A stretch of 64,000 nucleotides of DNA, from contig NZ_JAABOS010000010.1 in assembly GCF_010078235.1 (NCBI RefSeq), forward strand, positions 62,001-126,000, read 5' to 3'. Shown here piece by piece: positions 42,047-43,980 of the stretch. Source of the stretch: Cognatundibacterium crateris. GTDB taxonomy: Bacteria > Pseudomonadota > Gammaproteobacteria > Burkholderiales > Burkholderiaceae_D. The notes below the pieces were generated by a model, which worked only from the letters and a program-made list of their open reading frames with translations, searched no databases and was not told the origin of the DNA. The position numbers and the translations under genes are program-made. Positions within the stretch are counted from its first letter, which is position 1; each line of letters opens with the position of its first letter.

Positions 42047-42179
42047 GCTGGAGCCAGCTATTGCACTGCAATGTAAGTTTCCTGAAATTTGCAACATTCC
42101 TGATTGCTAAAGCGCGCTGATCACCTTAGTATTGTTGCTACAAAAATGTGCATTTCCATACGGAAAAACAGGAGGCAGC

Positions 42180-43004
42180 ATGAGCGACCAGGCACAGGGC
42201 AGAGGCGGCGACAGCGCGCCGCCGGATATTCGTACTATCATCGATAAAGAGTCTCCGTTTCCACCGGTGCGCCGGGTCGGGATGTTCAGGGCGCTACGCT
42301 GGTTACAAGCTGGCTGGCAGGATTTTCGTGCCTCGGGGGCGACCAGTATTTTCTACGGCATTTGCTTCGCACTTATGGGCATGGTGCTGAAGCTGGTGCT
42401 GCACAATGCACCCGAATATGTATCGGCACTCAGCTGTGGATTTTTACTGATCGGTCCCTTGCTGGCGCTGGGTTTATACGACATCAGCCGCCGTATGGAA
42501 AATCAGCGTTCAGGCTTGCTCGGCAGTGTGTTTTCTATGCGCGGCCGCTGGAGCAATATCGGCGTACTGGCGCTGGTATTGGCCGTCATCATGATGGTCT
42601 GGGCGCGCGCCTCGCTGGTGATTTTTGCACTGTTCTATAACAAGGGCATGCCCAGCATGCAAAGCTTTCTGAGCCAGTTATTCTCGCTCGACCACCTGGA
42701 GTTTGTACTGGTCTATGCCTGCATAGGCGCGGTATTCGCCAGCATCGTATTTGCGATTTCCTGGGTCTCGATACCGCTGATGCTGGACCGCGATACCGAT
42801 GCGATTACCGCCATGATTATCAGCTGCGTCTCGCTGTTCATCAATGTACCGGCCTGCCTGTTCTGGGGGCTCTGCATCGTGGCGGCCGTGGTGATAGGCA
42901 TGATGAGCTGGAATCTGGGACTGATCATCCTGATACCGGTCATCGGCCATGCCACCTGGCACGCCTACAAGGATGTGGTTGGTTACCCCGGTGAGCGCAG
43001 CTAG
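42180..43004 (+). CDS. DUF2189-family membrane protein, 3' end at a mobile-element boundary
   Basis: An inner-membrane protein of 274 residues of the DUF2189 family, function unknown. An N-terminal hydrophilic stretch (about 1-50, with DIRTIIDKESPFPPVRRVG) is followed by six predicted helices; GPLLALGLYDISRRME is the typical loop. The C-terminal GHATWHAYKDVV is also conserved. AGGAGG precedes the ATG at 42180. The stop codon TAG lies inside the CTAG target site of the MITE-like element that follows, so the last residues may have been altered by insertion. Confidence 0.85.
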   Translation: MSDQAQGRGGDSAPPDIRTIIDKESPFPPVRRVGMFRALRWLQAGWQDFRASGATSIFYGICFALMGMVLKLVLHNAPEYVSALSCGFLLIGPLLALGLYDISRRMENQRSGLLGSVFSMRGRWSNIGVLALVLAVIMMVWARASLVIFALFYNKGMPSMQSFLSQLFSLDHLEFVLVYACIGAVFASIVFAISWVSIPLMLDRDTDAITAMIISCVSLFINVPACLFWGLCIVAAVVIGMMSWNLGLIILIPVIGHATWHAYKDVVGYPGERS

Positions 43005-43268
43005 GGCCTGTTAACATTTAAATTACGTGTGCGAAAGGGGTAAAACAGCTGCAGGGCTAGGCGCAGCCCGCGCAACAGTGTAATCACTGTCAGCGGGATG
43101 CAACAACGCCATGCGGCTGTTTTACCCCTTTCCCTCCGGGTTCAAGCCAAAACGCGTGCTGGACTGCGTTGCGTGTCTTGTCAGGGGCACCAGCCCTGAC
43201 GGCGACACACGCCTTGCCAGCCCACGTTTTGGCTTGAACGCATCTCGCAATTTAAATGTTAACAGGCC
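43005..43268. mobile_element. MITE-like non-autonomous element with perfect terminal inverted repeats
   Basis: A 264-bp element whose ends are perfect inverted repeats of 20 bp (GGCCTGTTAACATTTAAATT at 43005-43024 and its complement at 43249-43268), flanked on both sides by CTAG (43001-43004 and 43269-43272), probably the target duplication. Inside, further nested palindromes form two arms: AAAGGGGTAAAACAGC (43034-43049) pairs with 43116-43131, with a small ACAGTG/CACTGT hairpin within; and GTTCAAGCCAAAACG (43140-43154) pairs with 43225-43239, with inner GCGTGTC/GACACGC-like and TCAGGG/CCCTGA stems. No reading frame for a transposase exists. CTAG-type duplications are known for IS5-family transposons, so such an element elsewhere in the genome may be the source. 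Confidence 0.78.
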
Positions 43269-43303
43269 CTAGTTACACGCACTCCGGATTCGTGCCGGCA
43301 GCC

Positions 43304-43798
43304 TCAGTAAGGGCTGCCGTCTTTGTGGCTGAAGCGCCACTGGCCATCAATCATGCTCGCCTGTAAATCATCATCGGGATAGCTGACCTGATCGCCTGCA
43401 CTGCGGTCACCGACTTCCAGATACACCACATCCTGCTCACTCAGATTAATCAGCTGATGCGCATTACCGCTGCCAGCCTGGAAGCCCGCGCACATCCCCG
43501 GTGCCAGCTGGGTCAGGCCTTCATCTGTTTTCAGGCTGGGATGACCGCTGATGATGTAGATGAATTCATCCTGCAGCGAGTGAGCGTGACGTAAGGCCGA
43601 TATCGCACCCGGTGCCAGCCGCGTCAGATTCACGCCAAACTGATTCAAGCCAAACAGCGTCCCTAAAGGCTGCTTGCTGCGGCCTTCCATTAACAAAGAA
43701 AACTGTTCCGGGTACAGCGATTTGACGGTACGCAAAGGCGCACTGTCGGCGACAATGGCCAGGGGTAAGCCGGATGGCTGGTTTGCTGGTGTAGACAT
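43304..43798 (-). CDS. Cupin-domain protein
   Basis: A 164-residue single-domain cupin. The N-terminal part is extended; cupin motif 1 reads HAHSLQDEFIYIISGHP (metal-binding His pair and Glu) and motif 2 is seen in PGMCAGFQAGSGNAHQLIN (His). This fits small metal-binding cupins such as sugar-isomerase- or dioxygenase-like proteins, whose substrates are mostly unknown. AGGAG is 6 nt before the ATG. It is transcribed alone, leftward, next to the MITE-like element. Confidence 0.88.
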   Translation of the reverse strand: MSTPANQPSGLPLAIVADSAPLRTVKSLYPEQFSLLMEGRSKQPLGTLFGLNQFGVNLTRLAPGAISALRHAHSLQDEFIYIISGHPSLKTDEGLTQLAPGMCAGFQAGSGNAHQLINLSEQDVVYLEVGDRSAGDQVSYPDDDLQASMIDGQWRFSHKDGSPY

Positions 43799-43980
43799 AC
43801 GAGACTCCTGAGATACTTGATTTGTTTTCTGGACAATGCGACAGTTTAGGGGCTCTTTGTTTCCCGATTACAGTGATGACACTGCTGTGCGGGATACGCC
43901 CGACCTTGTAAGCGTTTTATCCTGTCGCCTCAAGAGGGTAAAACATTCTCTTTGAGGCGATTTCATTAAAAGGAAACAGG

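Follow-up and report, generated by a model that had tools for sequence, protein, structure and literature searches.

A probable IS5-family-mobilised miniature element with conserved twin hairpins in Cognatundibacterium crateris

Introduction

What is a gene-free stretch of DNA that is self-complementary over nearly its whole length, and does its interior serve any purpose? The locus that raises this question lies in a stretch of 64,000 nucleotides from Cognatundibacterium crateris (GCF_010078235.1, contig NZ_JAABOS010000010.1, positions 62,001 to 126,000), the whole of which is called the window here. A sequence-only reading had proposed either an IS5-family MITE inserted at CTAG or a repeat that yields a structured RNA. 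The interiors of bacterial MITEs are usually regarded as leftovers. Here, we report copies, relatives, partner transposons and hairpin covariation of this element, whose unusual part is a conserved twin-hairpin cargo common to another MITE family and found across phyla.

Results

The element occupies 43004-43269 of the window (266 bp, GGGCC...GGCCC, gene-free), with boundaries taken from the flanks and from an empty site. Its terminal inverted repeats are perfect over 20 bp, as the sequence-only reading had stated, or over 24 bp with the outer CTAG included (43001-43024 with 43249-43272). The interior is filled, again as had been read, by two long palindromes of about 100 nt (43033-43132 and 43140-43239), each of which folds as one long hairpin and which are opposed to each other across a short linker. 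Folding of 43005-43268 gave -161.3 kcal/mol for the plus strand and -164.9 kcal/mol for the minus strand (z -14.2 and -14.7), and none of 200 dinucleotide shuffles per strand did as well.

Read from the left, the parts are a TA (43002-43003), the left end (43004-43032, plus strand; its outer part matches IS5-family element ends), the first hairpin arm (43033-43132, motif on the plus strand; arm covariance model R1, 82.2 bits, match 43033-43131), a 7-nt linker CCTCCGG within CCCTCCGGG (43133-43139), the second arm (43140-43239, motif on the minus strand; R1, 65.1 bits, match 43141-43239), the inverted right end (43240-43269, minus strand) and a second TA (43270-43271). Both TAs are assigned to target duplication by the flank pattern of 57 elements and the empty site L114. 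Arm 1 carries the conserved 5' loop CTAGGCG (43057-43063) and the conserved 3' loop CAACAACG (43101-43108) on the plus strand; the counterparts in arm 2, on the minus strand, are CAAGGCG (43210-43216) and CAACGCAG (43164-43171). The TAG stop (43002-43004, plus strand) of an upstream DUF2189 gene (42132-43004) combines the left TA with the element's first G, and the flanks minus the element and one TA still spell TAG. Rfam 15 returned only two matches up to E 1 for 42900-43400 of the window, both under the curated score, and only tRNAs for six loci with relatives of the element. A weak R1 match on the minus strand at 43857-43899 of the window (18.7 bits, E 0.009) was absent with model R2 up to E 1 and is probably due to chance.

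The source genome (G000) holds eight full-length copies, namely the window copy and seven at 93-98% identity. In a search of 60 genomes, source genome included, the window element was matched in 23 of the 36 genus members (again counting the source) and in none of the 24 genomes from other families of the same order. The window copy occupies the same site in the sister genome G001 (L069), so its insertion is probably older than the split between the two. Arm-less short derivatives that keep the ends were found at six further sites (L011, L015, L016, L018, L019 and L028), from which it follows that the arms may be dispensable for movement or may have been deleted in place. These derivatives measure about 45-55 bp, and four of them have one junction in common, which reflects either one deleted copy that spread or recurrent deletion.

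At E 0.01, plasmid and phage collections gave nothing that matched the window element. Among plasmid records (PLSDB), 4 match its relative L322 and 3 its relative L316, with no annotated feature beneath any match in gene tables that are incomplete. A literature search by topic found no paper describing the element by its title or the start of its abstract, a weak result because most subscription journals and all preprints lay outside its scope; exact end strings occurred only in unrelated work, and the 20 papers listed, of 51 with further end strings, were likewise unrelated by title. As a common repeat, the element seems to be unannotated.

The target site was read from the flanks of 57 listed elements (56 distinct, as one L241 entry overlaps another) and from seven source-genome sites compared with G001. 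TA adjoins the left side in 47 elements, the right side in 52 and both sides in 43; YTA...TAR is seen in 41, and CTA...TAG in only 21. One comparison was clean: the empty site L114 of G001 reads GACTTAGCAT without the element, and L008 reads GACT-TA-element-TA-GCAT with it. Such empty sites had been proposed as a check, and this one shows a TA duplication. A TA duplication also fits L002 and L007 if a nearby substitution is allowed; in L004 and L006 letters at the left junction have changed, the left side of L003 is too diverged, and L005 is a deletion remnant in G001. An eighth comparison (L048 with L128) gave no alignment and was dropped. The site of the window copy is filled in G001, and the empty-site evidence comes from L114, another site. 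CTAG as a 4-bp duplication, claimed at the outset, is rejected, as TA alone is duplicated at L114 and CTA...TAG frames a minority of elements. By these comparisons, the duplicated target is TA inside YTAR, and the flank counts and site comparisons resolve CTAG into TA plus one element-end letter and one flank letter. The copy at L007 (contig C23 of the source genome, 1501-1771), which has two arms, lies inside the loop of a terminator-like hairpin that is uninterrupted in the sister genome.

Scanning of species genomes for the 14-mer AGGGCCTGTTAACA gave at least 120 stretches. Among those listed, L173 (Pelomonas) is an 825-bp element with exact 14-bp ends and two overlapping ORFs, which match DUF4096 (E 1.5e-21) and DDE_Tnp_1 (E 2.3e-12); part of its transposase has matches in 11 of 37 genomes. 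Among these matching loci, IS of the genus have the ends GGGGCTGTTAACATTTA (L255, genome G017) and GGGCGTGTTGACATAT or one-letter variants of it (L257 in G011, L263 in G021), and both end types also occur on MITEs of the genus: the window element has GGGCCTGTTAACATTTA, and L050 has GGGCGTGTTGACATATG. L258 is the sole partner copy found in the source genome and is decayed; its similar ends lie about 750 bp from each other, and stops interrupt its reading frame. From the Pfam domains of the partner, its pair of ORFs, its size and its 2-bp repeat, we infer that it belongs to the IS427 group. Elements of that group mostly show 2-bp repeats and two overlapping ORFs, according to passages of PMC3281130 and PMC4133298.

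The window element accordingly resembles MITEs mobilised by IS (IS5, IS427-like) in its IS-like inverted ends, lack of a gene, many copies and TA duplication, and differs from them in an interior that is not IS-derived and consists of a mirror pair of structurally conserved hairpins. It is short, gene-free and multi-copy with perfect inverted ends; those ends are common with the autonomous IS at L173, L255, L257 and L263 and with the decayed L258; and it has a short target duplication, TA at L114 and in the flank counts, the other sites being less clear. IS5-family mobilisation, as the sequence-only reading had it, is therefore supported by copies, ends and empty site, with TA in place of CTAG as the target. 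Instead of a single copy and no IS sharing its ends, which would have counted against that reading, there are eight copies, and L173 and others share the ends.

The twin-hairpin layout was examined in 56 distinct elements picked by similarity of both ends and a length of 225-340 bp. In the standard plan, two hairpins of 95-104 nt each, separated by a linker of 6-9 nt, lie between ends of about 30 nt. This plan was found in 41 of the 56 (24 of 27 elements from the genus and 17 of 29 from elsewhere, the sources of the latter including other Beta- and Gammaproteobacteria and one alphaproteobacterium), and in none of the 56 after the interiors were shuffled with the ends kept. The remaining 15 have longer or shorter arms or a different linker. 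The motif of the second arm is on the opposite strand, which makes the element a mirror pair. The layout recurs in Proteobacteria and Acidobacteria with differing stem sequences; this recurrence of shape, not sequence, in elements of many distant bacteria suggests that the hairpins do something.

R1 matched more than the two-arm elements. In the source genome (150 of 893 candidates scored), it found the 16 arms of the eight elements, 21 further hairpins (E at most 8.6e-7) and four weaker matches (up to E 0.73). The 21 (L285-L305) form a second MITE family, its members about 101 bp long except for a shorter one, with a single hairpin of the same core; its ends, GGACTTACGC, are unrelated to those of the window element, and TA adjoins the left side in 16 of 21 and the right side in 16 of 21. 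One element of this family (L345) is present in G001 and missing in G000, as compared with the left flank of L007. No IS with such ends was seen in the source genome, judging by how its 53 exact GGACTTACGC end matches are spaced. Four other source-genome elements with GGACTTACGC ends (L379-L382, 190-201 bp) have a longer interior.

Across the phylum (E up to 1e-4, ten candidates scored per genome), R1 matched 151 of 397 sampled genomes, source included (84 of 223 genera; 124 of 362 good-quality genomes). Two arms were present in 24 of 29 loci examined from this sample (30 listed, less L328 of the source genome), and AGGGNCTGTT, read by eye, lies on at least one side of 18 of these 24. In 70 of the at least 120 stretches with the 14-mer, R1 gave 81 arms up to E 0.1. 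Of 30 genomes reached through end-matching loci, a set picked for the 14-mer and thus unrepresentative, 23 had R1 matches with at most 136 candidates scored; the counts were at least 91 arms in Pseudomonas daroniae, 88 in Thiodiazotropha endolucinida, 92 in HTCC5015 and 56 in an acidobacterium, with 3 in a Maribacter genome. R1 found none in the Firmicutes, Bacteroidia, Desulfovibrio, Poribacteria, Pontiellaceae, Xanthomonas and Xenorhabdus genomes among those 30. R1 gave a single arm over 15 loci that surround IS-type transposases or ends; it lies in L221, about 7 kb from the IS end.

Covariation was measured in two alignments. In 37 non-redundant arms (from 94 arms of 95-104 nt), standard pairs filled 84.2% of the cells of 33 pairs; after shuffling the share was 51.2%, and after sliding 38-43%. 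Double-change cells numbered 403, versus 140 in shuffles; related sequences beat such shuffles even without structure, and the margin over the slid versions is larger here than usual. A core alignment of 69 of 72 non-redundant arms (omitting L183, the right arm of L310 and the left arm of L313) gave 86.8% standard pairs versus 55.6% shuffled and 470 double changes versus 166. The least variable columns are the mispaired bases and those next to them (5' side, C-[A/T/G]-A-G-G-C-G; 3' side, C-A-A-C-NNN-G), so that the inner-loop consensus CWAGGCG / CAACnnnG is mispaired and hardly varies as the stems covary strongly. Fixed loops within covarying stems typically indicate a folded strand with a function.

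A constraint on the DNA palindrome alone would make G-T and A-C mismatches equally common, since one is the other read from the opposite strand. On the motif strand of 77 non-redundant arms, G-T was counted 123 times versus 38 for A-C, with a G-T excess in 49 arms, an A-C excess in 5 and a tie in 23; the arm alignment model permits G-U pairs and may add a small bias to these counts. An earlier count over 67 arms gave G-T 106 versus A-C 38 in two of the three stems (40 arms versus 7) and 19 of each in the inner stem. Both arms lean to G-T in 32 of 56 two-arm elements despite their opposite strands, and one arm is contrary in 4. Since G-T exceeds A-C in arms on opposite strands, selection seems to act on each arm in the fold of its own motif strand. 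The simplest medium for the selected fold is RNA, with single-stranded DNA as the alternative.

Discussion

The repeat family, shared ends, TA duplication, layout, covariation and wobble bias of the motif strand, all drawn from comparison of sequences, are best explained by a non-autonomous MITE that is mobilised by an IS5-family transposase and carries selected twin hairpins acting as RNA, a reading we consider probable. An IS5-family transposase (DUF4096 plus DDE, IS427-like) supplied by another element would recognise the GGGCCTGTTAACA ends and insert the element at TA within YTAR, duplicating the TA. The interior would consist of two inverted copies of one conserved hairpin module, and selection would keep a folded single strand bearing the CWAGGCG / CAACnnnG loops, most likely RNA from read-through of neighbouring genes. 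With the two arms oppositely oriented, transcription from either side would reach a motif-sense arm first. We infer the transposase that mobilises the element at present, the action of the hairpin as RNA and a binding partner for it. Transposon and structured-RNA repeat, first offered as alternatives, would then be one thing, since sequence comparison supports both the mobility and the conserved hairpin structure. A broader claim, that the hairpin is a portable RNA module, found in MITE families with unrelated ends, in more than a third of the sampled species of the phylum and in Acidobacteria, with a two-arm mirror form that works in either direction, is tentative, and we give it slightly less than an even chance.

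Two other accounts of the interior are each unlikely, to about the same degree. The element could be a plain MITE with a functionless interior, its palindromes kept by template-switch correction and the common layout owed to old ancestry or lineage spread. It is indeed mobile and multi-copy, and arm-less short forms exist; moreover, hairpin DNA is prone to template-switch correction, which can act on long palindromes and mimic covariation in stems. Such correction should erase mismatches, yet the mispaired letters of the loops belong to the least variable columns; also against this account, G-T exceeds A-C on the motif strand in arms of opposite strands, with both arms leaning this way in 32 of 56 elements. 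The hairpins could instead fold as single-stranded or cruciform DNA and serve transposition, by joining the ends or by recruiting a host or transposase factor. A nearly constant arm length, the mirror arrangement and the presence of the core in mobile elements with two end types would suit such a role; arm-less forms at six sites, two MITE families with a common core and unrelated ends, and the lack of arms in the 15 IS-type loci save the distant match at L221 speak against it.

A relation to ERIC, either as membership of that family or as descent of the arms from it, is very improbable. ERIC, which occurs in E. coli and other enterobacteria, is described in passages of PMC2229807 as a MITE of about 127 bp that forms a hairpin and has TA ends. 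The lead came from the ERIC sequence: an E. coli ERIC copy has AAGGCG, AGCG, TGAGCGA and ACGC around its hairpin, motif letters that by eye follow the same order as in the window element, but it has one hairpin and other ends. Membership is rejected, as neither model matches ERIC copies: R1 gave only 3.2 bits on an ERIC stretch of two copies, and with R2, filters off, the ERIC copy of E. coli DH1 was absent among 25 matches (E up to 10, 49 kb). The reading of an IS5-family-mobilised MITE with selected, RNA-acting hairpins is thus kept as the best explanation. It makes the function of a MITE interior directly testable, as a covarying structure common to transposons with different ends; the invariant loop letters indicate which mutants to make, and R1 provides a covariance model for a common, seemingly unannotated repeat.

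Other hairpin repeats were also compared. The Tn3-derived TIMEs have, in the account given in part of PMC4133298, a constant length of 262 bp, similar folds and differing cores. They have Tn3-type ends and 5-6 bp repeats, unlike the window element, whose ends differ; two TIMEs recovered in plasmid QKH54 (at 12288 and 41496, 29/38 end matches) were not matched by R2 with filters off to E 5, and membership was rejected. CIR repeats (Caulobacter, Brucella) are described in portions of PMC2229807 as two hairpin arms with a linker, about 110 bp overall, with GANTC in the terminal loop and unclear mobility. The window element, at 266 bp and without GANTC, is set apart by that description; GANTC is present in 12 of the 57 listed elements. 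Size, IS-like ends and TA duplication argue against REP/REPIN sequences (RAYT-mobilised, short tagged palindromes). Integron attC sites were considered for their paired hairpins and set aside, their R-box letters being unlike the loops.

Gene context was compared with placement ORFs called by a simple script. Convergent genes flank 5 of 8 two-arm elements in the source genome versus 0 of 19 intergenic single-hairpin elements (22 loci minus three inside called ORFs), a contrast noticed post hoc (Fisher p 0.0007). The single-hairpin elements among tandem genes showed no bias (7 sense, 6 antisense). Over all sources, convergent placement was found for 23 of 68 elements (79 minus 11 with short flanks or no ORF; L323 not entered) versus 23 of 99 background gaps (p 0.16), and the preference seen in the source genome was not established across this wider set.

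In Collimonas, the start of an element at L203 resembles that of the window element. A bare palindrome, AGGGCCTGTTAACAGGCCCT, consisting of two ends fused with nothing between, was seen at L148, L185, L217, L222, L226 and L234 in the genomes of named species; these palindromes are perhaps extreme deletion products.
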